Below are positions 16-20,974 of a DNA stretch of 45,752 nucleotides, in pieces (position 1 is the stretch's first letter; the number at the start of each line of letters is the position of its first letter). Where the stretch lies: the IMG/VR virus record IMGVR_UViG_3300020207_002598, positions 1 through 45,752 of that record; one strand, 5' to 3'. Source of the stretch: a virus. A model generated the notes under the pieces. It did not search any database. It was not told where the DNA came from and worked only from the letters and a program-made list of their open reading frames with translations. A program made the position numbers and the translations under genes.

Positions 16-2577
16 ATGTCAGATTTCCCACTTGCTAATCCCTCACGCAACAGTAATATGAATAACACCTCTTCGCCTGAAGTGATGCAGACCGTATCGC
101 CAGTAGTTTGGGCCCCTGCATCGGAGCCTCCAACGAAACTAGCAGTATTCGATATTGATGATACGCTACTCGATACGTCACAACGAATGCGGTCCGCTAT
201 TCGCATGGGCTTATTTGACCCGCGAGAGAAAGGGAAGAAATCCCATCCAAAGGGCGTACAGGCATTCCGTGATTTCTTTTACAGTCCAGAACGGTTCAGC
301 CTCGACAAACTTATCCCCGGTGCGCTGGATTTGGTTAACAGTCTTCATCAGCAAGGCTATACTATTGCATACTGTACTGGTCGTCCACGCCGTATTTTTG
401 AAGCAACCAAAAACCAACTTCGTCAACACGGATTCCCGATTATGCGCGATAAGAACGGATTTGAACTACTTGCCATGAAGCCTGATACAGATGGTAAGAC
501 TACTTCATACAAGTTCAACGTACTTCGCGACTTACAACATCGTTACGATGTTCGCATGTTTTTCGACAATCATCCCGGCAATCTTGCAGAAGCCCAGAAA
601 CTCGGAATCCCCGGCCTCTATATATCGATTGACCAGTACGCAGGTATCCAAGGACTTGCAGACCGTTTCAAGCAAGACAAGCGCAAGGTAATGGATGATA
701 TCAAGCGTAACCCAGTTGCCTTCCCAATCCCTGAATCCTACAAAGAACGTCTAGCAAAACAACTAGGCGAAGAAATGACCTCAGAAGGCTATACGCCCTT
801 AAATGTTCAAGAGCATTTCATCGATAGCGGAGCATATCATGGAAACAAAAGCAACTTCGATTACGTACAAGGAGAATACCAAGAACTACTCGATGAAATC
901 GAAGCCCAAGACTGGGATGAAGCGTATGCCGAATATAGCGACGTCGAAAGTCATCTCGCGTACTACATGTACACCAACTATGGCATAAGTATGCCCGTTT
1001 ATACGCACCGCCACATTCGAGGCGTTCTGTTCCGTGTAAAACTCTTTGAAGCCGTTATGAAGCACTTCAAACTTAAGTTCCATCCAAAATACTTGGTCAA
1101 CGGTTCCAACTACAAGAAGGTCTTCAAGGTCCGTACTGCACTTGAACTCGCGGCAAAAGACCAGAACAAGAAATTGCCAAATCTTACAGATGAGAAACTG
1201 ATGGCCGTAGTCAATTCAAAACTTGAAGAAGTTAAGGAAAATCCACCACAGTCGTTCACCAAGAGCAAAGTAAACGATTCTGTCAAGGGAACCAAGATTC
1301 AGAAGAAACCCGACCCAGAAACAGGTAACAACTGTCATAACTGTGCATATTGGAAACCTATTGGTGTAACTGATGATGCTAGTAAGGAAATTGGTCTTTG
1401 TAGTCTATGGAGTGATAAAGTCAACCGCGAAGTCCTCGCGGCTGATACCTTCTATTGTCAAGGATGGAAACCCGAAGCACGGGACAATCCCGGCGAAGTC
1501 CCTTCAAACCACAGGGAAGCCGCAGGTGTACTTGTGTTCCGAGATGGTAAACTCCTAATCCTCCAACGTTCATCTAAGGAAACCTCGAAGCACGGCCTAT
1601 GGGAACTTCCCGGCGGTAAAGTCGAAGAAGGCGAAACCGCAGAAGAAGCCGCAGTAATTGAAGCCAAGGAAGAAGCAGGGCTTGATGTTACACTAGGTCA
1701 GTACTTGGGTCCCCACCACGACTATAACAAAAAGAAAACTTATCACGGATATGTAGCCACTGCTCCTAGTGGTCAGCCAGTGACTTTGTCGGAAGAACAT
1801 TCAGCGTACAAGTGGGCAACCCTTGACGAAATCTCCGCAATGCCCAATTCAAAGGTAAGCCATCATCTACTATACTTCTTGGACACGCTGGGGACACTTC
1901 CCAATCCCAACTACGACCTCCCATCTAAGACCCCGCTTAGTGTAGGCGGAGATATGTCATACGAGCAATTGGTTGGCCGTACAAATCCTCTTCCTAAGCC
2001 CAAGAAAGGCATGAAGAAGCCAGAAAAGTACGTTGAGTACTTGATGGGTCATACTAAGATGCGTACTGAATTCCCAGACCGTCGTCAACGCTATGCTGTT
2101 GCTCTTTCACTAGTTGAAAAGAACATGGAATCTGGCCGAAATTGGGCACGCCATCGCGGACTCAAGAAAACGGTCCAAAAGAAGCAACTGAAGCGCCTGA
2201 AGGGAACTGCCGAAGCACTAAACAATCCCGGCGGTGATGCAATTGAACTATACGAATCGTTCAACGGACAACCGCCTGACATCGTAAAGAAAACAACAAT
2301 CGGAGTACCAAGTACACTAGTCCGTATTGGAGAAGGTGGTTGTTGGAGCGTAGGATATCGTTCCGATAAAGAAGGTCACGGCGAAGACCAAAAGTACATT
2401 CATAACTTTGGGGACTTCGGTAGGTTCCCGAAGAAAAAACCAAAGGACGGAAGAAAAGAACCCGACCTTTACGCGGCAATGGATGAAAGCGGTAATGTTC
2501 TATATCTGGTCATCATGGGAGGAACGTTCAGCCTCGAAACGGACCCGGACTCAGGAGTAAATTGGTTGGTGGGATGA
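16..2577 (+). CDS. Multidomain polyvalent protein: HAD phosphatase, MazG-like, Cys-rich, Nudix and C-terminal modules
   Basis: An 853-aa string of small enzyme modules. Residues 41-220 are HAD-superfamily (DIDDT at 46-50, CTGR at 120-123, late acidic FFDNHPGNLAEA). Residues 280-320 show a MazG-like ExxE/ExxD pattern (EYQELLDE ... EAYAEYSD). Residues 438-484 form a Cys module (CHNC, GLCSLW, CQGW). Residues 498-625 are Nudix: the box from G534 to L556 keeps the Glu ligands, but the usual Arg of the RExxEE core is Ile. A basic module with FPDRRQRYAVALS (686-698) and a C-terminal module beginning IELYESFNGQPP (743-754) follow; similar end modules occur in many phage proteins as I recall them. Asn-Pro motifs sit at 8, 232, 409, 491, 630, 657 and 737, close to module borders. 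Likely role is clean-up of damaged or non-canonical nucleotides, perhaps delivered with the virion. Domain calls are firm for HAD and Nudix, weaker elsewhere. Confidence 0.8.
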   Translation: MSDFPLANPSRNSNMNNTSSPEVMQTVSPVVWAPASEPPTKLAVFDIDDTLLDTSQRMRSAIRMGLFDPREKGKKSHPKGVQAFRDFFYSPERFSLDKLIPGALDLVNSLHQQGYTIAYCTGRPRRIFEATKNQLRQHGFPIMRDKNGFELLAMKPDTDGKTTSYKFNVLRDLQHRYDVRMFFDNHPGNLAEAQKLGIPGLYISIDQYAGIQGLADRFKQDKRKVMDDIKRNPVAFPIPESYKERLAKQLGEEMTSEGYTPLNVQEHFIDSGAYHGNKSNFDYVQGEYQELLDEIEAQDWDEAYAEYSDVESHLAYYMYTNYGISMPVYTHRHIRGVLFRVKLFEAVMKHFKLKFHPKYLVNGSNYKKVFKVRTALELAAKDQNKKLPNLTDEKLMAVVNSKLEEVKENPPQSFTKSKVNDSVKGTKIQKKPDPETGNNCHNCAYWKPIGVTDDASKEIGLCSLWSDKVNREVLAADTFYCQGWKPEARDNPGEVPSNHREAAGVLVFRDGKLLILQRSSKETSKHGLWELPGGKVEEGETAEEAAVIEAKEEAGLDVTLGQYLGPHHDYNKKKTYHGYVATAPSGQPVTLSEEHSAYKWATLDEISAMPNSKVSHHLLYFLDTLGTLPNPNYDLPSKTPLSVGGDMSYEQLVGRTNPLPKPKKGMKKPEKYVEYLMGHTKMRTEFPDRRQRYAVALSLVEKNMESGRNWARHRGLKKTVQKKQLKRLKGTAEALNNPGGDAIELYESFNGQPPDIVKKTTIGVPSTLVRIGEGGCWSVGYRSDKEGHGEDQKYIHNFGDFGRFPKKKPKDGRKEPDLYAAMDESGNVLYLVIMGGTFSLETDPDSGVNWLVG

Positions 2578-2960
2578 TGGCAAGAAAAAAACTATTCGGT
2601 ATCACTGAAACAGGATGGAAGGCCATTGATATTACATCTATTGGTCTAATCCTTGCTACTACTATTGCAGATACAGCGCAAAAGAGCAAGAACCGCAAAG
2701 TGAAGAAATTCAGTCGCCTTGGAATGACCCCCAAGGCATTCAAAACTACCAAACAAATTTCTAATGGGGTTCTAATCTTCGTTCTAACACGAAACTTCAT
2801 CGACACACTGGAAGAATACAACATTCTTGTAAAGAAAGACGCTATCTTCCCGGGCCGTGGCGTTCTTACAGAAACCGCAACGACGGCAGTACGAAAACTG
2901 AAACCGATTGGAAACGCACCTATGCCTCTTGATGGCGATGGTGTGCGCAACGTATTTTGA
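2577..2960 (+). CDS. Small two-helix membrane protein, basic
   Basis: About 127 aa, overlapping the stop of the upstream polyvalent gene (ATG at 2574 or 2577 inside GGATGATGG), so translation is probably coupled. Two hydrophobic stretches (IDITSIGLILATTIA and ISNGVLIFVLT) flank a strongly basic loop with many Lys/Arg. The layout, short basic protein with two membrane helices, recurs at 27579, 41245 and 41735 and suggests a family of virion-membrane proteins. No recognised domain. Upstream in-frame codons back to 2562 are possible but lie within the preceding gene. Confidence 0.65.
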   Translation: MARKKLFGITETGWKAIDITSIGLILATTIADTAQKSKNRKVKKFSRLGMTPKAFKTTKQISNGVLIFVLTRNFIDTLEEYNILVKKDAIFPGRGVLTETATTAVRKLKPIGNAPMPLDGDGVRNVF

Positions 2961-2970
2961 GGTAAATTAC

Positions 2971-3471
2971 ATGGCAGGATATTTTGAAGAAGACACAATG
3001 ACGCCCGGAGAAAGGGAAAGGTTCCGAGCATACGGTACTTTCCTTCTCGGTGCAGGTGGACTTTACCTTTGGGCAACCTCTCGTAAAGGACAACCAACAG
3101 TAGTAACGACAACAGGAACAGCAAAACTATCCAGTGTGCTAGTAACTCAAACATCTGGGTTTGGTGTACCAACAGATAAAAAAGTAAACCTAAACGGCAC
3201 AACAATCGAAGCACGGTCAGTTAGTGGATTCAATATGGACCTCAATATTGGTATCATCGTAACTGGACAAGGGTCGCTTTCAGCCAGTGCCTCAGCAAAT
3301 TACAGCGACGGTACTTCAAGTACAACTAAGCAATTGTCTGGTACAGATGCATTTACCATTTCTAAGGGCGACTTTATCGAGGCCAACAAGTCCATTAACT
3401 CATACACTGTGGCTGTAACTGCGAAGGATGGTAGTGCCGTAAGCGCAACCACCTTCTCGGTCGGTGCATGA
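2971..3471 (+). CDS. Single-pass membrane protein with Ser/Thr-rich ectodomain
   Basis: 166 aa from ATG 2971, which has GAGGT eight bases upstream (overlapping the stop of the previous gene). An earlier in-frame ATG at 2908 lies inside the upstream gene and gives an unlikely N-terminus. Residues 15-35 form a membrane segment (YGTFLLGAGGLYLWATS), followed by a beta-rich Ser/Thr/Gly ectodomain that resembles a bacterial-Ig-like or spike domain (repeated short strands, GTDAFTISKGDFIEA). Probably displayed on the virion or cell surface. Function unknown. Confidence 0.65.
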   Translation: MAGYFEEDTMTPGERERFRAYGTFLLGAGGLYLWATSRKGQPTVVTTTGTAKLSSVLVTQTSGFGVPTDKKVNLNGTTIEARSVSGFNMDLNIGIIVTGQGSLSASASANYSDGTSSTTKQLSGTDAFTISKGDFIEANKSINSYTVAVTAKDGSAVSATTFSVGA

Positions 3472-3472
3472 A

Positions 3473-6400
3473 ATGGGCGCAACAACATCGCAAGGATTCA
3501 TTTCAGTGCCCAAGAAAGGGGCAAAAGGAAGTGTATCACTTGACCTCGCCAAAGGTTTAGCAGTATCCGGTGCAAGCAACATTGGAAAGTTTCATGAAAT
3601 GCATTATGCGATGGTCCGAGATTTTTCAGAATTTGACGAAGGACGTTCACTAGTAACTGCACACGACCATGTTCATTACCACGTCTATGGCGACTACCGA
3701 CTTAACTTGTCTGAACTGATTGGTCCTGACTTTGAAGAACTAAGTACAGTTGAAGTTCGCGATTTATACAGCGCACAAGGTCCAGAACTTCTAAACATCT
3801 TGGACATTATAGCAACAGAATATCAAACGGTTCCATCAGTAATCACACGAATGGTACAATCTGGCGGCAGTTCTCAATACCTCCCAATTCCCATGCTACG
3901 CTTCAAAGTAGCAGATTACAAAACAGACGTAACAAGAAGCACAGCAATCGAAACAGATGACGTAGGTGGAAGCACATTCTTGCGAGTTCCACGGCTTAAT
4001 GCACACCTCCAATCGGAAGGGCATTCTGTTCGTACCAACTTTATACATCCGGTACGTCCGGATTCTAATGGGTGCGACAAACTTCATGGGTTTATCGACG
4101 CAGGAGCAGATACAGGCGACTTTATTCGCGTAGCCCGAGAACGACTTACAATTGAACCTCGTTTATCCCGTTGGTCTAACAATCAACTGCATTCGGGAAC
4201 ACAGGCTACTCGATTCTTCCTACCAAGCCTTGGGACTATTCTTGTTTCTGGTGAACGTATTGATGGTCTAAAGGATTACGTCGGAGGACGGTTAGAATAT
4301 ATTGAAGAGGAAGTCACCGAAGGACTAACCGATAACAAGTACGACCTACTACCAGAATTTCATTACCATTCAGTTGCAAACTTAAACACAAGGTACGCTG
4401 GAGGTATTGGAGGAGATTTGAATTCTATCGTTAACCGACAAGACGAATTAAATCCAGACATGGAATACATCGCGGTGTTCTTTGAATGGGCAAAAGCAAT
4501 TATTACCCATCCAGATTACCTCAACTATCTTGAAGTAACGCTCGGAGAAGACCTCAACGCAGAAAACGAAGCAATCATTACGTTCTTCGGGGGAACTCTT
4601 CCAGAACGAAGATTTGGGGATGGCCGTGGTAGTCTTCGTAACACGGCCATTGCTAACCCAGTGCTTCCACGAAGAATTTTGCAAATCGCGGTACAAGCAA
4701 CATTCCGAAGTGAATCTGATGAATTTGAAGACGGATTATTCGATGCAGGTAAGCACTTCATGAATCAACTGATGAATGAAGGACGCGACAGCATCTTACC
4801 GGGAACTGCTGTTAAACTAACCAATACGGGACGAATCCGGCTCCGTGGTTCATTAGCCCAATTAGATGAAGATGATGAAGACGATGGTGGCGATGCAGAA
4901 ATCTTAGACGATATCGACGAAGAAGATACATTCTACATCAATGAAGTACAAGGCGACCGATTCCAATTAAGTTACACTTTATCCAATGGTCGAACAGTAC
5001 TTTTCCCGTTGACAATAGGCGGAGTCGAACAACGCGATACCAACGTATGGTTTAGACGTGCAGACTTTACAGTATTCGACGAAGATAAGAATGAAGAACT
5101 CGACGAAGAAACACTTCAAGAAGAAGGATTCAAAGGACAAATCAATCCTATTCATCGTGTATTCCTTCGCATTGTAATGGATTGCTACATGACTATCGAA
5201 ACATATGTAGCACTGCTTACAGGGAACATTACAACAAAGAAAGCAAACAAATTCAGTCGTCCGAATCAAGACCCAAACATGGTACAACTAGCCGCACGCG
5301 AAGCAGGCGGTGGAGGCGGAGGCCGTAATCAAAAACAAGGAAAAGGCAAGGATAAACCCGGATGCGCTGAAAAACTTGCAGAACTCCGAACAGAACTAGC
5401 ACTAGGTCAGTTAGCATCAACTTATGCAACAACGCGCGGGGACTACACGAAGATTCAAGACTTTTACAATCAAGACCTGACAGGCGCAGAAATTCTATGG
5501 TTGTCCAATTCTATTTCAGATTTTAACCCAAATCTAGTTTCCAAAACACCCAGCAGTTATCGCAATCAACTTGCACAACCCGTATACATTCCTCCCCAAA
5601 ATGCTACGCAATATGTAACAGGAACAGAAACCAGTCGAGAAAAAATTGTTCTCCACCGCGCAGACCCCTACGGCGTACTTGGAGGGGTTCCACCAAATCA
5701 AGTAGTAGGTACATCAGTTACAGTGCCTACAACAAAAGACTTCGCTCAAGAAGTACCATATGCATACGAACCAATAAAGCCAACAGTAATCTTCCTTCGA
5801 CTAGATAGCGCTTTACTGCGAGATATTTTGATTGAATATGTCCGCCAACATAACCTATTCGTAGTCGAAGTTGCTCGTAGTGCAACTCGTAAGAAAGGCA
5901 AGAAACGAGGAGGCAACCAAAAGAAAGGTAACGAAAATAAGAAAGCCTCATCTATCCTTCCTACTATGTGGATGCTTACCAAACAAATGGCTGGTCAAGT
6001 TCTGTACTTAGATGACCAAAAACCGCACATACTGTGGAACCATCTTCTTGATGGAGTAGAACGGTATCGACAAAACCAAAACATGCAATACCCAATGATT
6101 CCAGAACATTGGGCTCAAACTTTTACCGTAGCAACACTCCGCAAAGACCCAGAACTAACCGGTGAAACAGTCGACATGGAAGAACAATCAGCACTACTAA
6201 CAGAATACATGCAGTTCCTTGAAAGTACATATTATCAATCATTCAACATGATTGCGGAAATTGTAACATCACTAGACATTGCACGTATTGAAATGATTAG
6301 CGACCTTGATGCGTTAAAGCGATACTTCGTCGAACGGATTCATGAAGATACAAAGTCAAGATTCCTTGACCGCGCATATTGGAATGGATACCAGTCCCTT

Positions 6401-6610
6401 ATCTATATTATGCGGACTTTTGCAGACATCCCTCCAGAATTGCGCGGAGAATATACTGCGTCGCGGTTCGATGAAGACGCCATTCAACAAATGCGTCAAC
6501 AAGCAAGCGAAATGGGAACACAATTGCGAGAACCCGTTTATGGACAAATTGAGGATGTAAGCCCAAGATTTATGCGCGAAGGACAGGTATATCGCCCACC
6601 CGGGTTCTGA
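3473..6610 (+). CDS. Large protein of unknown function, probable virion or assembly protein
   Basis: About 1045 aa with no domain I recognise. ATG 3473 follows the previous stop by one base; a GTG at 3464 in the same frame would overlap it. The middle has an acidic tract (DEDDEDDGGDAE, near residue 470), a Gly-rich plus Lys-rich linker (GGGGGGRNQKQGKGKDK, near 615) and a second Lys-rich patch (RKKGKKRGGNQKKG, near 805). No membrane helix is evident. Mixed alpha/beta regions separated by low-complexity linkers suggest a scaffold or internal virion protein, but size and position alone support this. RBS-coupled to the primase-ligase gene, nine bases downstream. Confidence 0.7.
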   Translation: MGATTSQGFISVPKKGAKGSVSLDLAKGLAVSGASNIGKFHEMHYAMVRDFSEFDEGRSLVTAHDHVHYHVYGDYRLNLSELIGPDFEELSTVEVRDLYSAQGPELLNILDIIATEYQTVPSVITRMVQSGGSSQYLPIPMLRFKVADYKTDVTRSTAIETDDVGGSTFLRVPRLNAHLQSEGHSVRTNFIHPVRPDSNGCDKLHGFIDAGADTGDFIRVARERLTIEPRLSRWSNNQLHSGTQATRFFLPSLGTILVSGERIDGLKDYVGGRLEYIEEEVTEGLTDNKYDLLPEFHYHSVANLNTRYAGGIGGDLNSIVNRQDELNPDMEYIAVFFEWAKAIITHPDYLNYLEVTLGEDLNAENEAIITFFGGTLPERRFGDGRGSLRNTAIANPVLPRRILQIAVQATFRSESDEFEDGLFDAGKHFMNQLMNEGRDSILPGTAVKLTNTGRIRLRGSLAQLDEDDEDDGGDAEILDDIDEEDTFYINEVQGDRFQLSYTLSNGRTVLFPLTIGGVEQRDTNVWFRRADFTVFDEDKNEELDEETLQEEGFKGQINPIHRVFLRIVMDCYMTIETYVALLTGNITTKKANKFSRPNQDPNMVQLAAREAGGGGGGRNQKQGKGKDKPGCAEKLAELRTELALGQLASTYATTRGDYTKIQDFYNQDLTGAEILWLSNSISDFNPNLVSKTPSSYRNQLAQPVYIPPQNATQYVTGTETSREKIVLHRADPYGVLGGVPPNQVVGTSVTVPTTKDFAQEVPYAYEPIKPTVIFLRLDSALLRDILIEYVRQHNLFVVEVARSATRKKGKKRGGNQKKGNENKKASSILPTMWMLTKQMAGQVLYLDDQKPHILWNHLLDGVERYRQNQNMQYPMIPEHWAQTFTVATLRKDPELTGETVDMEEQSALLTEYMQFLESTYYQSFNMIAEIVTSLDIARIEMISDLDALKRYFVERIHEDTKSRFLDRAYWNGYQSLIYIMRTFADIPPELRGEYTASRFDEDAIQQMRQQASEMGTQLREPVYGQIEDVSPRFMREGQVYRPPGF

Positions 6611-6619
6611 GGTGATTAA

Positions 6620-9600
6620 ATGGATAGGGACTACAAGTATGTTTATCGTGAATTCGATAAGTACGTTCGTATTCTAGAAGCCGAAGGTATTTATCCACCA
6701 TCAATCAACAGCATCGAATTCTTTTGTAAAGAAATGATTACAAAGAAGTTTTGGTATTATCCACCTACTCGCGGAGGAATCAAATCTGTAATGATTTACG
6801 GAACTCTTGCACGGGACCAACTTACAACAGATGCTATTTTAGACCGTTCCGATGGAATAGAAAATCAAGAACTATTTAATGAAATGCGGCAGAAATTGAT
6901 TGACCGCGTCGAAGAAATGTACGGTGTAACAGGAAACGAAGAACGAGCCCGTAGTTGGGCACCAAATCCATTTTCTGTCGACGACCGTGCTTTTGAATAC
7001 GCTTTAATGGAAAATATCAGCGAGGAAGAATGGGGCCGCATGGAACCATTAGAACGTCAACAAACAGTAGCATACCAAAAAGCAGTTGCTGATTCAATTT
7101 ACGTCAAGAACCGTTGTAGTGAATATTTCCAAACCGTAGGACCATTCATGCTCCGCAAAACAATGCACCATCCAATTATGAGTATCTATTTTTCATTCTC
7201 AGCGTCTGCATTAGATGGACGCAATTCAACATTCCTCGCTAGAAAGCGTGACGGAGAAGTGTCGGTCGATTCTGAAGATGATATTCAAAAATTCATGACC
7301 GAGCGAGAATACGATGACATTCTTTCTATGGGTAACGATGCGTTTCGTGGCCTTTGGTTTGTACCTTCAACCACTGGACAAAATATCAAGATGGCTTGCA
7401 TTGACTTTGATAACCCAAGCATGGCCGCAAAAGATACTAAGATGAAAACCGCAGTACGAAACGTAGCAAAGAAATTAGAAGCGCAAGAAGTACCATACAT
7501 TATCATGTTTACAGGTAAGTCATACCAAATTTGGTTTGGCACCGAAGCAATAAACATCGACAATCAGTATGAAGCAAACCGCTATATTGAACAATTGCTA
7601 AAAGGCGTTGACGCGCTAGTAAGTGCAAAATCATCAGTAAGCGAAGCAGAACGGAATGAAGCAATTAAACGCGCAGTTCCGTTGATTGACAAGTCAGTTA
7701 ATACGAAAAACAAACCATTGGGTATGTTCTTTGGTATGCATTACAAACCGCAGAAATCCCCAACAGACGACCCCGGTACAGGATATGTCCGAGTACCAGT
7801 TCCACTAAAACAACTAACAACATTTGACCCTACAATAGAAGCACACCCAGAATATGTGATGAAAAACTTCAACGCGTTGTCATTACAAGTAGACCAGTGG
7901 TTTGATGAAGTAGGCATAGGGCAAGGATTTGGAGGAAAAGGAAACATCGAAACGCCACCGGAATGTTTCCGTAGCGACGATAACGAACCAGAATTTTCAA
8001 CAGTCAAGTTTGCCGAAGAATGGAAAAAAGGAAAGAAAGGATTCCCCGAATTCAACTTTGAAGATGGGCGCGCTGAAGCATCGCAATATCAAGAACTACT
8101 CATTACGCCTAAGTTTGATGGATGGCTTGGTGTTATTCATTATCGAAGCACTGGGAACTTTATTCTCAACAAAAAGCGATTAGTTAACCAGAAAGAACGT
8201 TCCACAAAAACAGGCAATGTAGTTATGACCGAAGAAGTACAATGTGTACTAGTTACACGTGGCGGAATCGTAATGTGGGATAATCACATTACACGCGAAT
8301 TCCAGCGAACTTGTGAACGCTTAGGTATCCGAGAAGCAATTTTAACTGGAGAACTAGTAACCTACAACGAGTATGGAAAGGTAGCCGGTCCTCAAGGCGT
8401 AACCGCTATCCTCAATCGCAAAGAACAAAAAGATGGGAATACTACACAAAACGAACGCCTATTCAATAATCTGCGCTTCACGTTAACAGACCTTATCAAA
8501 ATCGACGGCAAACAGTGGAACATCGACGACCCGTACGATGCAAAGCATGACCTTCTCAAACAATTTACTTCATTCCGAATTGACTTAACACCGTACTTCC
8601 GCCTTGAGCAACCATTTATTGAACGGTTCGACGCACTTTGGACACAAGTTACAGTTACTGATGGGCACGAAGGATTTGTTGTTTATGCAGACGGAAACCG
8701 CTTCAAAGTCAAGCGTCATAATACATTAGATGCTGTAATCATTGGCATCGATGCAACAAGCAAACGATGGATTGATGGAAAAGGAATCGGTTCAGCATAT
8801 GTAGCAGTAATGCACAACAGACCAAAGTTTGGACCAATGTATGTTTCACTTGGAAGAGTAGGAACAACAGGACTAACAGACGCACAAAGAATGGAATTAA
8901 CCGAGCGCGTACTTGGCGAAGATAACGAATTTGTAATCCCACTTAGTAAAGCACTAGGACAAACAGAAGATACAATGGGACTCGAAAATGTAGTTCTTGT
9001 TGAACCTACTACTGTTGTTGAAGTTGTATATGAAAAACTTAACGAAGGTCGTGAACCATCGTTTGCAATGTATCGTCAACAGCGCATGGGTAGGGGACGC
9101 ACTGCAAGTGTAAACTTCACCTTCGCTGATGTAATGTATTCTCGTCGTATGCGTAGTCCACGCATTGTAGGAATCCGAGATGACAAAAATCCGTTGAAGA
9201 AACTCGACATTGATTCTGCACAGGGCGACACATCTGGCGGATTTCAAATCGGAGCAAAGCCCAATCCACTGTTTAGTTTTCCGACAATCAGTTCGCTAAT
9301 CAAAGAGTTCAACCGAATCACATGGTCCCTTGAAAGCGCGAAGAAAAAGGAAGTGCCAGTTGTATTCCGCGACGACGAATTGGTACAACGCTCTTTCGTG
9401 GGAGAAGTAATTTCCGGACCTGAAGGCGTTGATGCATCCATTGACCTGTGGAGGAAACTTCACAAACTAATGGACAGGAACCGAGAATTCGCAGGGTATG
9501 TCAAGAACAATACCATGTACTACGGGTCTTCACACCGAAGAGGTGAAGTTATTCCAGAATTCACCGAAGAATTCAGTGGTTGTGATTTCATGTTCCACAC

Positions 9601-11062
9601 CCACCCATACCATCCACTACTAGGTCGGGAACTTGGTTTCATTAGTCCACAAGACATTGTAGTATCTATGATTGCCCGTATTGGCTACGGAGTAATGAAT
9701 CATGTAGTAAGCGAAACCTATGGGTTCGATGTAGTGACGATGAATATTAAGAAAGACAGTAAACTTGCCAAAGCAATTAAAGCAATCAACAAGGCAAAAA
9801 CCCCCGCTACCATCAAGAAATATACCAAAGAAATCAGTAGCATTATTACCAAAGAAGCAAAGATGATTCATGGTGAGTTTAGCAAGAAAACATCGGTTCG
9901 CAACAAATTAGTATCATGGCTAGTCAAAAACGAAATTGCGTTCACACCATTCGATATCAGCGCCGCTACTATCAATGAGTATGCAGAAAAATCAGAGAAC
10001 TTCGTGGTAAAATACCAAGTAATGCCGCTACCGTTGTACCAAGTTTCCTTCAAAGGACAATACCCACAACTGGAAGTCCTTGAAAATCCAATGTCGTTCT
10101 ATGGATTTGAACCAACACGTAACGTTGAGTATGTAGGATATCCCGGCGAAGAAGTATGGGGATTGAAAATTGAAGATGAATTCCGAAATGCATATGACCG
10201 TGCCTATGCATTTGATAAGCCACCCGGTACAGATAAAATGTACCTTACAGGTACATCATCAGGGCCCCAATCCCCTGCACCTATCAAAGTTCGTGGACGC
10301 AGTATTTACCTTGATGTTAGCAATCTCGACCAAGGAATATTCGCAACAGCAATTGATGACGACCTAATGGAAGGGCAAGACGCGGCAAAGATTCTTCCTA
10401 AGTATCAACCGGATAAGGAAGGAATTGAAGTGCCTAGGTCAATGTATGACATGGAACGAGGAATGTACCACAACGACGCCGAACAAAATGCAAGAGATTT
10501 GAAATTACAAGCAAAAGTATTCTTTGATATGTCCCGACCCAAGGACATGCTCAAATCTGAAAACAAAGATGAATACTTCAAAAAATGGTTTGAAATGATT
10601 GACGAATCTGGGGCGGTCCTCAAGGATGTCAGCAAAAAGAAAGGACTTCCAAAAGATGAAAAGAAGATTCTAGCAGAAGTACTAGAAGAAGAAATCATGA
10701 ACAACCCACAGTACATCACAAGTCTATGGGATGAGCGCATCGAGGGTTTTGTCGCAGAATACGAAGAAGCCTTACGAGAGTACGAAGCCGGGATTGCGAG
10801 TCATCCAGATGATAGGTTGCGCACTAAGTATCCCGAATGGGAATTCAATGCACTACAAAAAGCCCGTATGCTATTAATTGCAGAAGAAGAATATGGTTAT
10901 ACGCCATCAGAAATTAGCGCTATACAATCAGGATATCAACCGAAGGGCATAAGTCCATCATTGACGTCGGCTTTTTCAGACCTGTATGGACCGGGACTCC
11001 GGTTTGATGACCTTGATGACGAGGAGGATGAATTTGATGGAACCAACGCAGAAGACAATTGA
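6620..11062 (+). CDS. AEP primase-polymerase / ATP-dependent DNA ligase / JAMM metalloprotease fusion
   Basis: 1480 aa, start ATG 6620 with GAGGTGAT seven bases upstream. Residues about 180-420 look like an archaeo-eukaryotic primase: IDFD (261-264) as the catalytic DxD, a TGKSYQIWFG segment (298-307), a third Asp in PLIDKSV (354-360). Residues 485-830 are an ATP-dependent ligase: nucleophile Lys in KFDGW (498-502), TGELV (576-580), EGFVV (684-688) and FKVKR (695-699), then an OB-like region. The motif I Arg seen in most ligases is absent (KFDGWLG). Residues 900-1040 are JAMM-like: HTHP (993-996) then SPQD (1009-1012). The acidic C-terminal 330 residues are unknown. NP motifs at 116, 857, 881, 1156 and near 1394 mark borders. 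Probably primes, fills and seals the element's DNA; the protease may cut partners or itself. Confidence 0.85.
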   Translation: MDRDYKYVYREFDKYVRILEAEGIYPPSINSIEFFCKEMITKKFWYYPPTRGGIKSVMIYGTLARDQLTTDAILDRSDGIENQELFNEMRQKLIDRVEEMYGVTGNEERARSWAPNPFSVDDRAFEYALMENISEEEWGRMEPLERQQTVAYQKAVADSIYVKNRCSEYFQTVGPFMLRKTMHHPIMSIYFSFSASALDGRNSTFLARKRDGEVSVDSEDDIQKFMTEREYDDILSMGNDAFRGLWFVPSTTGQNIKMACIDFDNPSMAAKDTKMKTAVRNVAKKLEAQEVPYIIMFTGKSYQIWFGTEAINIDNQYEANRYIEQLLKGVDALVSAKSSVSEAERNEAIKRAVPLIDKSVNTKNKPLGMFFGMHYKPQKSPTDDPGTGYVRVPVPLKQLTTFDPTIEAHPEYVMKNFNALSLQVDQWFDEVGIGQGFGGKGNIETPPECFRSDDNEPEFSTVKFAEEWKKGKKGFPEFNFEDGRAEASQYQELLITPKFDGWLGVIHYRSTGNFILNKKRLVNQKERSTKTGNVVMTEEVQCVLVTRGGIVMWDNHITREFQRTCERLGIREAILTGELVTYNEYGKVAGPQGVTAILNRKEQKDGNTTQNERLFNNLRFTLTDLIKIDGKQWNIDDPYDAKHDLLKQFTSFRIDLTPYFRLEQPFIERFDALWTQVTVTDGHEGFVVYADGNRFKVKRHNTLDAVIIGIDATSKRWIDGKGIGSAYVAVMHNRPKFGPMYVSLGRVGTTGLTDAQRMELTERVLGEDNEFVIPLSKALGQTEDTMGLENVVLVEPTTVVEVVYEKLNEGREPSFAMYRQQRMGRGRTASVNFTFADVMYSRRMRSPRIVGIRDDKNPLKKLDIDSAQGDTSGGFQIGAKPNPLFSFPTISSLIKEFNRITWSLESAKKKEVPVVFRDDELVQRSFVGEVISGPEGVDASIDLWRKLHKLMDRNREFAGYVKNNTMYYGSSHRRGEVIPEFTEEFSGCDFMFHTHPYHPLLGRELGFISPQDIVVSMIARIGYGVMNHVVSETYGFDVVTMNIKKDSKLAKAIKAINKAKTPATIKKYTKEISSIITKEAKMIHGEFSKKTSVRNKLVSWLVKNEIAFTPFDISAATINEYAEKSENFVVKYQVMPLPLYQVSFKGQYPQLEVLENPMSFYGFEPTRNVEYVGYPGEEVWGLKIEDEFRNAYDRAYAFDKPPGTDKMYLTGTSSGPQSPAPIKVRGRSIYLDVSNLDQGIFATAIDDDLMEGQDAAKILPKYQPDKEGIEVPRSMYDMERGMYHNDAEQNARDLKLQAKVFFDMSRPKDMLKSENKDEYFKKWFEMIDESGAVLKDVSKKKGLPKDEKKILAEVLEEEIMNNPQYITSLWDERIEGFVAEYEEALREYEAGIASHPDDRLRTKYPEWEFNALQKARMLLIAEEEYGYTPSEISAIQSGYQPKGISPSLTSAFSDLYGPGLRFDDLDDEEDEFDGTNAEDN

Positions 11063-12818
11063 GATGGTCTTCGGGTTCCCCCGCCGAGGAGAAGTATACG
11101 GCACATTCGATGTACTGGACTCGAAAATTGACCCATCCACACAAAATTGGTCAGTGACTTTTGCAGAAGAAGTACCCAAAAAGTATGCAATCGAAGCACT
11201 TCGTACTTTTGTTGGTAAGCAGGCAATTTTCGCAATAGATAACATGGACTTTAGTGTTGAATTCCCAACCAAACCAGTCAATGTTGAAACAATAAGGGAT
11301 AATCCACCGGGAGCAGTACAAACTCGCGTTACCGGTTCTTATACGGTAAATGGCGCATTCCAAAATCCAATGTCACAAGAAGACTTTGATGCTGACATGG
11401 ATAAGATGACAGTATCCAATCCAAAGAAACACTTCCGTATATATCCAGCAGGTGAACTTCATTCTAAGAAATTCCGCGACCAATTGTTCAAATTCGTTAC
11501 ACGACGAGGGGAATCATACGGATGGGTAGCGAATGGAGAAATCTATCACCGCAAGGGTTCACTTGTTATGCCTTATGTTAAAATCAACAAACACATCGAG
11601 GGGTCAGTAGTTTCTTACCACACGCATCCATCTAAAGACGAACCGTCACTTACTAGCCCAGATGATATTCAATGGTACATGGACGCGGCATACAAGTGGG
11701 GAATCCGCCATTTCTATACGATTATGAAAGACCGATTAGACCACTTCGAATTCATTGTAAAAGGCGATACAGGACGTAAGCGGTATCTAAAAATGGACGA
11801 AGGGAAGTTTGTTGATGACCTCAGTAATTTGCTAGACAAATGCGAAAAAGAATACAAAGACCGTGATAACCTAAATGATTACGAATTCTGCGAAAAAGTA
11901 ACGCGTGCTTGGGTAAAAGAAATCAACAACAAGTTTAGCCATCTTGTCGAAATTAAATACCACCCGCACCTAAGACCCGGCGCACCTAAACTACCAAAGG
12001 GACCAATCCCGAACCCGGGAAGTGATACCCCTTTTCCCCACACGTCCAGAATCAAAGTGAACGACAAGTATTTATCCATCGCACTGAATGAATTGAAAGG
12101 CATTGACTACGATTGGATTCACTACGGCGGAGATGAGTTTAGCCACACAATGTATGTCTATTGGTGGTTGAAGTACCACTTCTTACCAAAGGCAGACAAT
12201 ACTGATAGGCTGTGGCTATGGGAAAAGAAAGGACTGGATGGGGACACTCGTGATAAAGTACGCACATATTTACAACAAGAAGTGGAAGATGGATGGACAA
12301 ATGCAGACTGTTTGCTAATGCTTGGCCTGTTCCACGACATTGCAAAGAAGCGTGAAAAAGAACAGAAGATTCACCATTCCATTTTGGGCGCAGATATGTT
12401 CAAGGAAGAAATTGCACCAGAACTTAAACTACCAACAAACCTAACAGAACGACTATATTTGATGTTACAATCAGATGTAGGTAGGAAAAACATTACCGAA
12501 GAACAGTTTCAAACAATTGCAGGGGACTTGTATCCAGTAGCAAAGATGTTCCACATGGCCGACAGAACCGCACATCATCCGTACATGTATACTATCGCGG
12601 CAAGGATGGCTCGACGCGAAGGTGTACTCAAGACCGGTGAATATGGTGATGCATATATCGAGATGGCTAACAAACACGACATTCTAGAATTGGTTCAATA
12701 TTTTCGCAACAAAGCGTTGCAAAACCCCCCGCCTAAAGTTCCAACGACTGTTACGTATTCTGCGTCATATGGGGTTGCGATAGACCCAGATACGGCAGAA
12801 TTCTTGTTCGAAGTATGA
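11037..12818 (+). CDS. JAMM metalloprotease plus HD phosphohydrolase polyvalent protein
   Basis: 593 aa from ATG 11037, nine bases after GAGGAGG and overlapping the upstream gene by 26 bases. ATG 11028 touches the ribosome site and is less likely. Residues 1-88 are unknown. Residues 130-245 form a JAMM/MPN-like domain with HTHP (195-198) and TSPDD (206-210), matching HxHP-x(n)-SxxD. Residues 357-525 form an HD domain: FSHTMYVYWWL (368-378), LFHDIAKK (431-438), HHS (446-448) and QSD (478-480). NP motifs at 89, 110, 128, 326 and 563 flank these modules. Known HD enzymes hydrolyse nucleotides or nucleotide second messengers; the substrate here is unknown. This is the second JAMM domain in the operon. 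Confidence 0.82.
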   Translation: MEPTQKTIEMVFGFPRRGEVYGTFDVLDSKIDPSTQNWSVTFAEEVPKKYAIEALRTFVGKQAIFAIDNMDFSVEFPTKPVNVETIRDNPPGAVQTRVTGSYTVNGAFQNPMSQEDFDADMDKMTVSNPKKHFRIYPAGELHSKKFRDQLFKFVTRRGESYGWVANGEIYHRKGSLVMPYVKINKHIEGSVVSYHTHPSKDEPSLTSPDDIQWYMDAAYKWGIRHFYTIMKDRLDHFEFIVKGDTGRKRYLKMDEGKFVDDLSNLLDKCEKEYKDRDNLNDYEFCEKVTRAWVKEINNKFSHLVEIKYHPHLRPGAPKLPKGPIPNPGSDTPFPHTSRIKVNDKYLSIALNELKGIDYDWIHYGGDEFSHTMYVYWWLKYHFLPKADNTDRLWLWEKKGLDGDTRDKVRTYLQQEVEDGWTNADCLLMLGLFHDIAKKREKEQKIHHSILGADMFKEEIAPELKLPTNLTERLYLMLQSDVGRKNITEEQFQTIAGDLYPVAKMFHMADRTAHHPYMYTIAARMARREGVLKTGEYGDAYIEMANKHDILELVQYFRNKALQNPPPKVPTTVTYSASYGVAIDPDTAEFLFEV

Positions 12819-12862
12819 CCCACGTAAAGTACCCGGCAATGATGGGAAAACTAGTGGGTCAT
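12815..12862. repeat. Perfect 9-bp inverted repeat before the 1281-aa gene
   Basis: ATGACCCAC (12815-12823) and its exact reverse complement GTGGGTCAT (12854-12862) are 30 bases apart. The left arm holds the stop of the JAMM-HD gene and the right arm ends two bases before ATG 12865. It could fold in mRNA to separate the two genes, or serve as an operator. Seen directly; function inferred. Confidence 0.55.
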
Positions 12863-12864
12863 TC

Positions 12865-15800
12865 ATGATGACTTACAGACAAGGACTGTATCTGAAAATG
12901 GTTCTTTCAGATGGATATGTTGCGTCTGCTACTCTTGGATTCAAGTATCCCGGCAATCTAAACATTACTGGTGTTCCTGTTCGCGATGACTTCGGTATGT
13001 CAGGTGCTAGAGAAGTATATGAGCGTGTAGGACAAGTACTAGAACAAGCATATGAAATAGAAGTACAATACGAAGAAGGTAAACCATTACAACCAGAAAC
13101 ATTCGATATAGTTCCTGCATCTGATGAAGATTCTGCATTACAACCACTTACTAACCCACGTCCAAACGGCGTAACAATCGTTCTTGCCGGCGCACACGGT
13201 TCTGGTCGTCGTGAAATTGCTAAGGAATTGCATAACATGGGAGGGTTCATGCTTTGCCCGATGCACACCACCGAACCAAGAAAACCGGGAAGACAACCAA
13301 ATCGTGATGCAGTAAATCATTCTCATAACTCGTTCAACAATGAAGTAACGACAGGCAATATGAGATATTGGACGATTGGTGCAGACGGACACAAATATGG
13401 ATATACCCAAGAACAACTACAACATCCAAAATCCGTAATGTATACAACACCTCAAATGGCTATGAAGATGAAAGAATCAATGCCCAACATTACTATCGTA
13501 TTCCTTGATAACAAAGATTCAGTAAAGCGACATACTAATCGCTTAGTACGACGTAACGGTGTAACATACAACATGGCCAAAGCCACAGCAAAGCGCAAAC
13601 ATACGTTACGCAATTCTCGACACAATTTTGACAAAGTCGTAAACGTACAGGATAACGATTACAAGAAAGCGGCAATCACGCTCATCAACCCACCAGTATT
13701 GAACAACCCGCAATTCGATATCGAAGGGGTTGACTTCTATGCTACAATTCCTCAAGTGAAGTACAAGAACCTCGGTGCGGTTTCTGCCGAAATTGAAGTA
13801 GACCGAAATATTCCAAAGGAACTTGTAGGAAACGTAAAGGACATTTTCTATGGTCTGATTCAAGACTATGAAAAGAAAACCGACAAGCGAGTAGCACTTG
13901 CAATTGCATTTGCTATTGACGAGATTACTCAAGAAGTAAAGAACCGGGGAGGTAATGGTGTCATTGGCTTCACGGTTGAAACTGGCGGTAGTCTTGGATT
14001 GCCAGTTGTTGAGTTCAATAAAACAATTCCAGCCGTCGTAATCGTCACTGGGGATGCGATAAAAACCAGAACGACACTCAAAAATCCTCGCACTCCCGGT
14101 GGAAAGAAGTTTCCAGACAAATATCTGAAGGGTCTTACGCCCCTTGAGAAGATGATTGCGGAAGACGAAATCGATAAGGGATACGAATACGATGTGGATG
14201 ACCCTAAAGCATACAAGTTCTGGAAATCCGATATCAAAGCAAAGGCCCGTGGAATGAAAATTGGGCCTTCAAAGCATCGTCTGAAGTATTACAAGATGTA
14301 TCGCAACAACATCGACCCAGACTACAAGCCGTCAGGCAAAACCCAGAAGGCAAAGTTCCTCAATCGAATTGTCAAAGAAACCGGCATCAAAAAGAAGTAC
14401 CTTGAAGAGATTTACAACAAAGGACTTGCCGCATGGCGCGTAGGCCATCGCCCCGGTGTGCAACAACACCAATGGGCCGCAGGTCGAGTCTATGCATTTG
14501 CAGTAGCCGCCGAATCTTCAACGGGTAAGGGAAAACCCGACCACAAACTTGCAGTGGAAGCAGGTGTAAGAAAGAACCCACCAGCATCCGACATCAACGA
14601 GGACTTTGAACGCATGAAGCAAATGGCTTACGAAGTGCGAACCAAAGAGATAGCCGGAGAACCAATCAACGGACGGGACTGGTGGAACCAACAAATCCCA
14701 CAAATCGAGGAAGCATATGGAACCGAACCGCTTAACGCGCGTTGGTTGATTCCTCTTGATACGACCGGCTTTGACCCGTCTGACAAATCACAGGAGTTCG
14801 ATGATGACGGGGTGAAACCGCTTCACTTCCTGAACCAACTCAAACGAATCCCTATGACGAAGCCACCAACTCCAGAACGTATCATGCAGGTCGCCCTCAA
14901 TATTGGACAGGGGCAAGTACATGGAATTATCCCTGAAGACTATGGGTTGGAAGACTTCATCGTCTTTGACAATCCACCAATAGAAGTCATGCCTCGCAAT
15001 AACGAATTAAACACTACTCGATTCATAAACTTGGAAACGGATGAAGACGTAACAGGCAAATTATTCGATGGGGCGATACTGAACACAAAAGAATATCCAA
15101 ATCTACACGTAGGTAAGGAACTTAATTTATCGAGCAAACTCCCTAATGGAATCCCTAAGAAACTCAACATTGCAAAAATGGGTAATGAGCGAGTTATAGT
15201 ATTCGATGGGGGAAGACTACTCGCAAAGAAAGTCAACATCGATGGACCTGTTTATCTCGAAACATCTCCGTTCAGTCGTAACGAACCATCAGGGTTCGTC
15301 GTAGCGACAGGTAGGGCGCATTATGACGAAAGTGCCTACACGGTTTCCGATGTACGAATAACACGGTGGGATGACAGTGTAATCCCAATGCTTAGACCAC
15401 CCTATTTCATCTATGACGAAGTAACAATACAAAGCAGTCCAGCAGTATACGGACCACTACCAAATCCATCACCATCAAAGCAACCAAAAGCATCATTCGA
15501 TTGGTTGGAGAAGTTCACAGCATGGGTCGAACTCGTTAACATGAAGAACAAGGAACTGATTGAATTCCTTGAATCAGACCCATGGGGCAAGGAAGCAGGT
15601 ATCAACAAAGAAAAAGCAAAGGAAGAAGGAATCAGTCGTGGACGCTTCTCCGCAAGCCGCATTCTCATCATGCGCAAGAAACTCGGGCTTACCGGCCCGA
15701 AGGACTACATCAAAGCCGGTCCAATGATTATTCGCAACTACTACGAACTCGCACAAAAGAAGTGGTCAGAAGCAGACTGGAATTGGTGCAGAAAACAAGT

Positions 15801-16710
15801 GAGTTTCAATTCACGCGCACGCGGACAATCTGGACCATACACAGATAGCAAAGGAAGACCAACTCGTAAATTAACCGCGCTTTGGGTATGGGGACACGAC
15901 CCATGGCGGTATGCACGCAAGATTGAGAAGCGTAAGACTATGCCCAAGTGTCCAGACGTACCATGGATTGGGCGTACAGAAAAGCGAATGTATGGTACTA
16001 CGCAGTACAAATATCCAGAAGTCAAAAGCAATCCATTTATTGGTCCATCGGATATACATGGAACAGGTACATTTGCAGACCAAGACTACACCCAAGGGGA
16101 AGTAGTTTTTGAAACACAAGAAGAATTCCAATACGTAAACCATTCAGATGTTCCAAACATTTCCCCTGAATACATGACAGACGGACAAGTACAAGGAATT
16201 GCAAACACCAACATTACAGAAGGGGAGGAACTACTCCTTGACTATGACGAACTCCGCGAATTAATCGGACTTCCGGAAAGCGATGGCCTACCAGAAGAAA
16301 TGTTCAACCCACCATTCCGTAGACCACGCCTGTATCACGGTTCTTCTATCAACAACTTGAAGATTCTCAAGCCACACATGAACAAGACTATTGGACGTGA
16401 AGTAGTGTTCGCTACGCCCAACTACGAGTATGCTTTGGCAATGTCAGTTCCATCTAGTAACAAGGACCTTGACATAGGATATGTCAATGGTCAATTTATG
16501 ATTGAAGAACAATATGAAGGTGCATTTGACTTGCTTAAACAGGCGGCTTACATTTACGAAGTTGATGCACAAGGATTCTATGAACATCCACAGTTCCCAG
16601 AAATGGAACGTATCATCGAAGTATCTGTACCAGTGAAGAAAGCAAAGCGAATTCCTAATGTCTATCAAGAACTCCGCAGGGTTGGGGCGGACCTAATTCC
16701 GTATTGGTGA
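12865..16710 (+). CDS. Nine-module polyvalent protein: guanylate-kinase-like, DUF5824-like, SET, ART-like
   Basis: 1281 aa, ATG 12865 or 12868, no clear ribosome site. NP motifs at 97, 275, 281, 407, 571, 703, 867, 1056 and 1148 divide it. 98-270: guanylate-kinase-like (AGAHGSGRRE at 109-118, HTTEPRKPG at 134-142), but the P-loop Lys is Arg. 285-400: possibly YbjQ/DUF74-like (RGGNGVIGFTVETGG). 408-568: DUF5824-like as found in phages and large viruses (AAWRVGHRPG, WAAGRVYAF). 868-1050: a viral-type module (SFNSRARG, ALWVWGHDPW). 1057-1136: short SET domain (HGTGTF, NHSDVPN, EGEELLLDYDEL), a protein-lysine methyltransferase fold. 1149-1281: ART-like (LYHGSS, VFATPNYEYALAM). Modules at 1-96, 572-700 and 704-865 are unknown. 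A set of host-modifying enzymes is likely. Confidence 0.8.
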   Translation: MMTYRQGLYLKMVLSDGYVASATLGFKYPGNLNITGVPVRDDFGMSGAREVYERVGQVLEQAYEIEVQYEEGKPLQPETFDIVPASDEDSALQPLTNPRPNGVTIVLAGAHGSGRREIAKELHNMGGFMLCPMHTTEPRKPGRQPNRDAVNHSHNSFNNEVTTGNMRYWTIGADGHKYGYTQEQLQHPKSVMYTTPQMAMKMKESMPNITIVFLDNKDSVKRHTNRLVRRNGVTYNMAKATAKRKHTLRNSRHNFDKVVNVQDNDYKKAAITLINPPVLNNPQFDIEGVDFYATIPQVKYKNLGAVSAEIEVDRNIPKELVGNVKDIFYGLIQDYEKKTDKRVALAIAFAIDEITQEVKNRGGNGVIGFTVETGGSLGLPVVEFNKTIPAVVIVTGDAIKTRTTLKNPRTPGGKKFPDKYLKGLTPLEKMIAEDEIDKGYEYDVDDPKAYKFWKSDIKAKARGMKIGPSKHRLKYYKMYRNNIDPDYKPSGKTQKAKFLNRIVKETGIKKKYLEEIYNKGLAAWRVGHRPGVQQHQWAAGRVYAFAVAAESSTGKGKPDHKLAVEAGVRKNPPASDINEDFERMKQMAYEVRTKEIAGEPINGRDWWNQQIPQIEEAYGTEPLNARWLIPLDTTGFDPSDKSQEFDDDGVKPLHFLNQLKRIPMTKPPTPERIMQVALNIGQGQVHGIIPEDYGLEDFIVFDNPPIEVMPRNNELNTTRFINLETDEDVTGKLFDGAILNTKEYPNLHVGKELNLSSKLPNGIPKKLNIAKMGNERVIVFDGGRLLAKKVNIDGPVYLETSPFSRNEPSGFVVATGRAHYDESAYTVSDVRITRWDDSVIPMLRPPYFIYDEVTIQSSPAVYGPLPNPSPSKQPKASFDWLEKFTAWVELVNMKNKELIEFLESDPWGKEAGINKEKAKEEGISRGRFSASRILIMRKKLGLTGPKDYIKAGPMIIRNYYELAQKKWSEADWNWCRKQVSFNSRARGQSGPYTDSKGRPTRKLTALWVWGHDPWRYARKIEKRKTMPKCPDVPWIGRTEKRMYGTTQYKYPEVKSNPFIGPSDIHGTGTFADQDYTQGEVVFETQEEFQYVNHSDVPNISPEYMTDGQVQGIANTNITEGEELLLDYDELRELIGLPESDGLPEEMFNPPFRRPRLYHGSSINNLKILKPHMNKTIGREVVFATPNYEYALAMSVPSSNKDLDIGYVNGQFMIEEQYEGAFDLLKQAAYIYEVDAQGFYEHPQFPEMERIIEVSVPVKKAKRIPNVYQELRRVGADLIPYW

Positions 16711-16714
16711 TGAC

Positions 16715-17197
16715 ATGGAATTCAAATCCGCAAAAGAACTTGTTCGCGGAAAAGATGGCACAGTAATCTATACTGTCGATTCTGCGGAATGGGATAAGTT
16801 CATTGCAGACATCATCAAAACTCAAGGTAGCGTTGAATGGTACATGCAAAAGCCATTCCTATGGATGAAAGAACATCTAAATGTAGGGTACAATGCCAAC
16901 GGAATCGGTGTACAACAAACAAAAACAATCCACATTCGTAAGGGCCGTGAAAAAGATGAATCCTTGCTTGTACACGAATACGGACATGTACTAGGATATG
17001 GACATACACATCCTCTAAATCCAAACGTAATGAACCCCGTTGACAACATGCGAATTACTGACGGCAACAAGATTACGGAACGTTTCAAGGAGAATTTCCC
17101 CGAATATTATGAAAAGGTACTTGTTCCATCCGAATCCCAACGAGTAATACCGGTAGCGATTGCGCTCGGCATTATTCTGTTTGGGGTCATGGGATGA
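16715..17197 (+). CDS. Membrane-anchored metzincin (matrixin-like) zinc protease
   Basis: 160 aa. HEYGHVLGYGH (87-97) matches the metzincin zinc site HExxHxxGxxH, with His87, His91 and His97 as ligands and Glu88 as the base, and Met106 (NPNVMNP) fits a Met-turn. A hydrophobic C-terminus (144-160, VIPVAIALGIILFGVMG) should anchor it in a membrane. Very short for a matrixin: only the catalytic half is evident. It starts four bases after the SET-containing polyvalent gene and overlaps the packaging ATPase by an ATGA junction. A virion-maturation protease that cuts the NP-linked proteins is an attractive but untested role; entry through the host surface layer is an alternative. Confidence 0.85.
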   Translation: MEFKSAKELVRGKDGTVIYTVDSAEWDKFIADIIKTQGSVEWYMQKPFLWMKEHLNVGYNANGIGVQQTKTIHIRKGREKDESLLVHEYGHVLGYGHTHPLNPNVMNPVDNMRITDGNKITERFKENFPEYYEKVLVPSESQRVIPVAIALGIILFGVMG

Positions 17198-20810: not shown

Positions 20811-20974
20811 GGTATTTCGAGGGCAAACTCGGTTATGAAGATTCCCAAACAACGACATATAGATTACAATGTCTTACACCGTATGACAAACTAATCACGT
20901 ACTTCATATAGTAGTGCTTAGTGAGGAGAATTGCCCACAACGGGCGAAACAAAACAAATAGGAAAGTGAATAAC

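Follow-up and report, generated by a model that had tools for sequence, protein, structure and literature searches.

Organization of the locus and related viruses

The window, which is the whole 45,752-base stretch analysed here and corresponds to the IMG/VR virus record IMGVR_UViG_3300020207_002598, contains in its left third giant open reading frames (ORFs) encoding 853, 1048, 1480, 610 and 1281 amino acid residues. They are followed by a small metzincin, a HerA/FtsK-type ATPase, an FGase-like protein, a protamine-like protein and further ORFs (Table 1). ORFs were called mechanically. A preliminary description, made from the DNA sequence, had reported the 610-aa ORF as a 593-aa protein, which is its length from an internal start instead of the first start codon; the names MazG-like, in the 853-aa ORF, and primase, for the part of the 1480-aa ORF that precedes the ligase, are also taken from it. 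That description treated the 593- and 1281-aa proteins as separate; both are parts of one continuous gene in G001, G002, G003 and G009. In the window (12780-12870), a frameshift near 12815 separates the two ORFs, which may stem from the assembly, be a genuine mutation or be programmed.

Table 1. Giant ORFs, Asn-Pro (NP) joins and associated genes of the window
Feature	Position	Strand	Remarks
853-aa polyvalent ORF	16..2577	+	Pfam, module homologies, breakpoints; HAD phosphatase aa 42-183, MazG-like helical ~233-408, Cys-rich Zn-type ~422-489, Nudix 499-616, short module 658-735, C-terminal module 741-852
NP aa 232 (IKRNPV)	709..714	+	HAD / MazG-like join
NP aa 409 (VKENPP)	1240..1245	+	MazG-like / Zn-type join
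NP aa 491 (ARDNPG)	1486..1491	+	Zn-type / Nudix join; left edge of Nudix-for-YbjQ swap
NP aa 630 (TLPNPN)	1903..1908	+	Right edge of Nudix-for-YbjQ swap
NP aa 657 (GRTNPL)	1984..1989	+	Module border
NP aa 737 (ALNNPG)	2224..2229	+	Precedes C-terminal module
1480-aa ORF	6620..11062	+	Pfam DNA_ligase_A_C, NHEJ ligase, JAMM signature; ligase aa ~540-856, JAMM-signature module ~890-1150, C-terminal part
NP aa 882 (GAKPNP)	9263..9268	+	Left border, second JAMM-signature module
NP aa 1156 (EVLENP)	10085..10090	+	Right border, second JAMM-signature module
610-aa ORF	10986..12818	+	N-terminal module, JAMM-signature module, HD hydrolase module
JAMM/MPN+-type module, aa 147-343	11424..12014	+	NPs at aa 145 and 343 on either side
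NP aa 580 (ALQNPPP)	12723..12728	+	After HD module
1281-aa ORF	12865..16710	+	Pfam, homology search of relatives; N-terminal module, guanylate-kinase-like 104-263, YbjQ 295-374, DUF5824 417-554, modules 571-703, 703-867 and 867-1056, SET 1080-1127, C-terminal 1148-1281
NP aa 97 (PLTNPR)	13153..13158	+	Before kinase-like module
NPs aa 275 and 281	13687..13710	+	Kinase-like / YbjQ join
NP aa 407 (TLKNPR)	14083..14088	+	YbjQ / DUF5824 join
NP aa 571 (VRKNPP)	14575..14580	+	After DUF5824
NP aa 703 (VFDNPP)	14971..14976	+	
NP aa 867 (PLPNPS)	15463..15468	+	
NP aa 1056 (VKSNPF)	16030..16035	+	Left edge, SET module
NP aa 1148 (EMFNPP)	16306..16311	+	Right edge, SET module
Metzincin-type protein, 160 aa (HEYGHVLGYGH)	16715..17197	+	Directly after giant gene
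FGase-like amidohydrolase, 191 aa	17972..18547	+	
NP in leader of protamine-like protein (MALTEVMLVNPPRK)	18846..18851	+	Likely start near 18819
RRNP of 65-aa membrane protein	26787..26792	+	Directly ahead of hydrophobic segment
NP near N-terminus of 808-aa ORF (APKVNP, aa 19)	38868..38873	+	

The window was compared with eleven related virus records. A seed search of viral contigs with the 1281-aa sequence gave no match; the relatives were reached via the packaging-type ATPase and via a 207-aa protein that is strongly conserved, and were then searched internally. They comprise G001 (3300012920_000030), G002 (3300028844_005067), G003 (3300020274_000001), G004 (3300012920_000028), G005 (3300020601_000007), G006 (3300025632_000015), G007 (3300020446_000001) and G008 (3300017746_000001) from IMG/VR, the GTDB contigs G009 (PAND01000026.1) and G010 (JAAZXA010000068.1), and L107 (3300025892_000024), found through the JAMM-signature module. 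The genomes are mutually related, so that the counts given below are not independent, an effect which the tests on held-out and representative genomes lessen but do not remove.

Since G001 encodes archaeal/eukaryotic-type Rpb1, TFIIB and PolB, a group II chaperonin family is common to the window and G001-G008, and G010 was binned in a Euryarchaeota metagenome-assembled genome (MAG), archaeal hosts are likely for this group of uncultured marine dsDNA viruses. PAND01000026.1 (L079), a 101-kb relative, was binned in a Flavobacteriales MAG, probably wrongly, because its relatives carry archaeal-type genes. The Rpb1-type RNA polymerase large subunit is full length (1617-1664 aa) in G001 (L017:6498-11351), G002 and G003 (L027:4129-9123), with all five Rpb1 Pfam domains present in G001 and G003, something that one would not normally expect of a virus of prokaryotes. 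The ORFs scanned in G001-G003 included no Rpb2, and a literature search for archaeal viruses that carry both an RNA polymerase and polyvalent proteins found nothing specific. The chaperonin of the window (33747-35282) is of the thermosome type, and its family is kept in nine of the nine genomes compared, as is a 241-aa protein (36495-37220) with a Walker-A-like GPSMSGKT motif and no Pfam or NCBIfam match. The 207-aa protein (20966-21586) is 88.7% identical to that of G003, against 25-60% for most other proteins; it matched nothing in PHROGs, nor anything in the phage records by tblastn, and its conservation makes it the probable major capsid protein of a lineage not yet described. A tRNA-Arg(gcg) gene (43546-43622) lies close to a serine recombinase gene (44134-44997), a layout that could reflect integration.

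Frequency of NP in the giant proteins

The dipeptide NP occurs seven times in the 853-aa ORF (aa 8 and the six positions of Table 1; 2.6 expected from composition), five times in the 610-aa ORF (aa 106 and 127 and the three of Table 1; 1.4 expected) and nine times in the 1281-aa ORF (all in Table 1; 5.2 expected). Six copies were counted in the 1480-aa ORF, with 3.2 expected. Altogether, the count of NP in the giant polyvalent ORFs of the window is about 2-3.6 times the value expected from composition, and in those of the relatives it mostly reaches 2-4 times the expectation. RNA polymerase, DNA polymerase and chaperonin ORFs show NP close to expectation, so the excess is not general to the proteins of these viruses. 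All NP positions quoted in the preliminary description, as well as its counts of seven, five and nine, its several copies in the 1480-aa protein, the NPPR near the start of the protamine-like ORF (as VNPPRK) and the RRNP of the membrane protein (63 aa there, 65 aa here), were found in the sequence.

NP and homology breakpoints

Homology breakpoints were collected from 1009 ORFs of nine genomes. Within 10 residues of an NP lie 194 of the 598 unique breakpoints, versus 72.8 expected (z 15), and NP had the strongest association with breakpoints among the dipeptides tested. When the 1281-aa protein was used as query against the relatives, it gave separate matches ending at NPs (for instance 1-276, 407-570, 565-704, 873-1057 and 1148-1280), and the matched segments occur in differing order between genomes; in G003, the order of the modules is inverted across the NP571 join.

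The NPs located at breakpoints show a preference for K (52 versus 9.3 expected), L (38 versus 11.6) or R at position -2, and often for V, A or P at position -3. The preliminary description had written the motif as xNP(P/G/R/S/x). Its recurrence holds; however, the most informative constant part lies upstream, as [VAPTI][KLR]x, and not in the residues P/G/R/S after NP. The extended motif [VAPTI][KLR]xNP was found in 185 copies versus 35.4 expected, while scrambled or substituted control patterns range between 0.7 and 1.9 times expectation, most of them around 1. In six representative genomes, within-protein shuffles gave 23 copies versus 119 observed, and the upstream signature is present on 47% of the NPs of giant ORFs, with 6% expected and 0-9% on other dipeptides. 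About half of the NPs of giant ORFs do not show the full motif, weak versions such as EMFNPP and VFDNPP are found at some joins, and there are a few matches inside RNA polymerase and DNA polymerase ORFs.

As the first genomes had served to derive the motif, it was tested on three held-out ones, where it is found 15 (G009), 19 (G010) and 7 (L107) times versus 3.8, 5.5 and 1.1 expected; all seven copies of L107 belong to its two giant ORFs. The excess did not hold in two unrelated control phages, with 6 versus 3.7 in Pelagibacter phage HTVC008M and 4 versus 2.6 in halovirus HVTV-1. In the held-out genomes, 45% of the motif NPs lie within 8 residues of a breakpoint, compared to 11% of the other NPs and 14% of random positions; in addition, outside the held-out set the values near breakpoints are 51, 19 and 17%, respectively. 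NPs lacking the motif are therefore near the random rate, which indicates that the motif, and not NP per se, marks the joins.

The ribosome-skipping peptide 2A has the motif D(V/I)ExNPGP. The giant ORFs of the window contain no NPGP and the motif here is [VAPTI][KLR]xNP, thus a 2A peptide was rejected.

Domain borders and exchange of modules

AlphaFold2 models of the 853-aa protein (mean pLDDT 57, with the Nudix domain also failing) and of residues 90-1281 of the 1281-aa protein (45.5) were too poor for a linker test. In the first, six of the seven NPs fall in low-confidence segments, a weak indication given that 46% of its residues have pLDDT below 50. Pfam envelopes were used instead. In 19 giant ORFs, none of the 107 motif NPs lies inside an envelope (22.7 expected), and only four of the 217 NPs overall do (43.8 expected), while DP, GP and SP are inside almost as often as expected. 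Furthermore, the median distance from a Pfam domain to the nearest NP upstream of it is 14 residues, versus 70 for random points. Breakpoints, Pfam envelopes and the comparison of free genes with fused modules together give strong support to a uniform linker that recurs at the module borders, as the preliminary description had claimed, and within the lineage NPs are commoner between the domains than inside them.

Relatives show that the modules are exchanged at these joins. G001 and G002 carry YbjQ in place of Nudix between NP491 and NP630 of the 853-aa ORF, and homology stops within two residues of both NPs. The C-terminal module of this ORF is a small separate gene preceded by NP in G007, G008 and G010. 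The FGase-like ORF (around 190 residues) is a free gene in eight genomes and is embedded in a giant ORF in the other two where it was located: in G007 at 1376-1547, flanked by NP1368 and NP1555, and in G010 at 853-1025, flanked by NP846 and NP1032. The preliminary description had proposed to look for the same modules as single NP-flanked genes; free genes do occur, together with their fused counterparts. The ligase lies in a separate ORF in the window and inside a giant ORF in G007 and G010, and motif NPs are found at both borders of the second JAMM-signature module also in G001, G002, G003 and G009. Equivalent modules joined without NP, the observation that the preliminary description had named as contrary to its proposal, were not seen within the lineage; outside it, HTVC008M has a DUF5824 module without NP at its join, which indicates that the linker belongs to the virus group and not to the module. 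In G010, a Csx3-like domain (Pfam Cas_csx3, E 4e-8; aa 1637-1688 of ORF 109355-115120, L097:7355-13120) is located beside the kinase-like module and is possibly a counter-defence against type III CRISPR signalling.

NP in putative virion proteins

The protamine-like protein has, in nine genomes, a short leader ending in (L/M/I)(V/L)NP, such as MALAELVMVNPPRK or LVLVNPPKGK; in G007, G008 and G010 this protein was recognised mainly by its NP leader. The motif, or a sequence close to it, is also present towards the N-terminus of the 808-aa protein, of the 65-aa membrane protein and of some others. We infer that these are virion proteins. By analogy with phage SPN3US and adenovirus, NP near the N-termini of such proteins would be the distribution expected for a virion-maturation protease.

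Candidate proteases

The signature of JAMM/MPN+ metalloproteases consists of a conserved E, HxHP and S-x2-D. A module with this signature is present in giant ORFs of all eleven genomes (window and G001-G010), lying at the N-terminal end in one part of them and closer to the C-terminus in the rest. An alignment of 16 copies from these genomes shows E..G, HTHP and S..D to be invariant, where only E..G is an independent test, as the copies were collected by their HxHP..S..D part. One copy gave a weak match to Pfam Prok-JAB (E 0.0025), and a search of solved structures (PDB) with the module sequence found no credible match; the signature and this Pfam match make the module a candidate JAMM enzyme. 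The metzincin was found in seven of the eleven genomes (window, G001, G002, G003, G005 and G009, and G004 by profile) and was not found in G006, G007, G008 and G010, which weakens it as sole protease. Pfam and PHROGs scans of a subset of the proteins showed no known capsid-protease family in that subset. By its distribution over the genomes, the JAMM-signature module is the leading protease candidate and the metzincin the second one.

Interpretation of the motif

The preliminary description had left the choice between a cleavage signal and a packaging tag. The sequence features lean towards cleavage, and on balance we consider it somewhat more likely than not that the motif is the cleavage site of a virion-maturation protease which separates modular polyproteins. 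The giant ORFs would encode strings of complete small enzymes and zinc modules, with HAD, MazG-like, Nudix, kinase-like, YbjQ, DUF5824, SET, PAP2, Ham1, HD, JAMM-signature and other cassettes; [VAPTI][KLR]xNP would be recognised by a virus-encoded maturation protease, which would separate the modules, most likely during capsid assembly, and would also act on the protamine-like protein, trimming its leader, and on certain other virion proteins. Because each module would end in a complete site, modules could be swapped, gained or freed without losing their processing, which would account for cassette exchange at NP. In favour of cleavage are the protease-like preferences upstream of NP, the short leader with which the protamine-like protein begins, and the presence of a JAMM-signature module in every genome examined. 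Against it count the NPs of giant ORFs that lack the full motif, the rarity of a proline at or beside the scissile bond of most proteases, and the fact that JAMM enzymes are known chiefly for the cutting of ubiquitin-like tails. As a more tentative proposal, these viruses might have a polyprotein economy of archaeal dsDNA viruses, in which ten to twenty host-takeover enzymes are kept as cassettes and cut by a JAMM-type protease that is itself a cassette.

It seems rather unlikely that the motif stays uncut and is instead a short tag for docking or packaging, with one copy for each module, to which a capsid or scaffold protein would bind so that the giant proteins are loaded into the virion. 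Its occurrence near the N-termini of virion-like proteins (the protamine-like protein, the 808-aa protein and the 65-aa membrane protein) is consistent with a tag, and short linear motifs in linkers often bind partners; however, one tag per polypeptide would suffice, whereas the motif is found at most joins and flanks exchangeable modules on either side. Still less probable is that NP, as a proline-rich and helix-capping sequence, makes a good uncleaved inter-domain linker at which domains are shuffled. The residues that follow NP are indeed proline-rich, and the dipeptide is mildly enriched in the control phages (1.2-1.6 times), but what stands at -3 and -2 makes a difference: NPs lacking those residues are found at borders no more often than by chance. 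Moreover, the breakpoint and motif pattern is faint or absent for PP, KP, GP and SP, and the leader of the protamine-like protein has the motif too.

The exact exchange of modules at NP would also suit joins that are DNA-level recombination sites, with NP merely encoded by that DNA. We regard this as very improbable and rejected it on codon usage: the Asn and Pro codons at the motif match the background, and the twelve-base stretches across NP share no common DNA (177 distinct among 185), which places the constraint on the protein level. Chance or a compositional artefact has a negligible probability, for although N and P are rather frequent in the giant proteins, the excess stands out against shuffles, scrambled motifs and control dipeptides and recurs in the held-out genomes and not in the control phages.

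Polyvalent phage proteins have been known since 2017, and a five-residue join motif gives a handle on their separation, delivery and exchange: it points to places where any cut ends should be sought, to residues to mutate and to a parsing of giant proteins into modules. It is also a practical way of delimiting new domains in largely unannotated viruses. If cleavage does take place at the motif, large dsDNA viruses of prokaryotes would join those that use polyproteins, and JAMM-type enzymes might gain a new kind of substrate.

Comparison with known systems

In RNA virus polyproteins, several functional proteins encoded by one ORF are separated by a common cleavage motif. The viruses described here differ in having dsDNA and, probably, archaeal hosts, and their modules are accessory enzymes that are freely shuffled.

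The head-maturation protease gp21 of T4 acts at LxE sites. Protease gp245 of SPN3US cuts after AXE, a motif common to many head and ejected proteins, and N-terminal propeptides occur there (PMC10052503). A short motif is found here near the N-termini of several putative virion proteins; it is a different motif, it would separate several enzymes within one polypeptide, and no homologous protease was found among the proteins scanned. In adenovirus, the precursors of capsid and core proteins, among them the histone-like pVII, are processed by the protease AVP at (M/I/L)XGG|X or (M/I/L)XGX|G (PMC4246237). The spacing of these sites is the same as in [KLR]xNP, and the protamine-like protein with its short leader offers a further likeness, although adenovirus is an unrelated virus with no counterpart of the enzyme strings, and no AVP-like cysteine protease was seen among the proteins scanned here.

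Polyvalent proteins of phages and conjugative elements are giant proteins that combine 2-15 effector or nucleotide-acting domains and enter the host together with the DNA; their processing by zincin-like metallopeptidases has been proposed, and DdrB and DarA of P1 are cleaved and packaged (PMC5512222). The giant ORFs of this lineage, with two or more distinct enzymatic domains (Pfam) in variable architectures of shuffled order, belong to the same class. In those proteins the zincin domain is inside the protein, whereas here a JAMM-signature module is carried by 11 of 11 genomes and a separate metzincin ORF by seven of 11. They further differ in that one lineage-wide motif is placed at most joins and coincides with the exchange borders; neither "linker" nor "Asn" appears as a word in the main text on polyvalent proteins (PMC5512222). 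Processing by metallopeptidases had thus already been proposed in general terms (PMC5512222), and what is new is the join motif together with the evidence that it delimits exchangeable cassettes.
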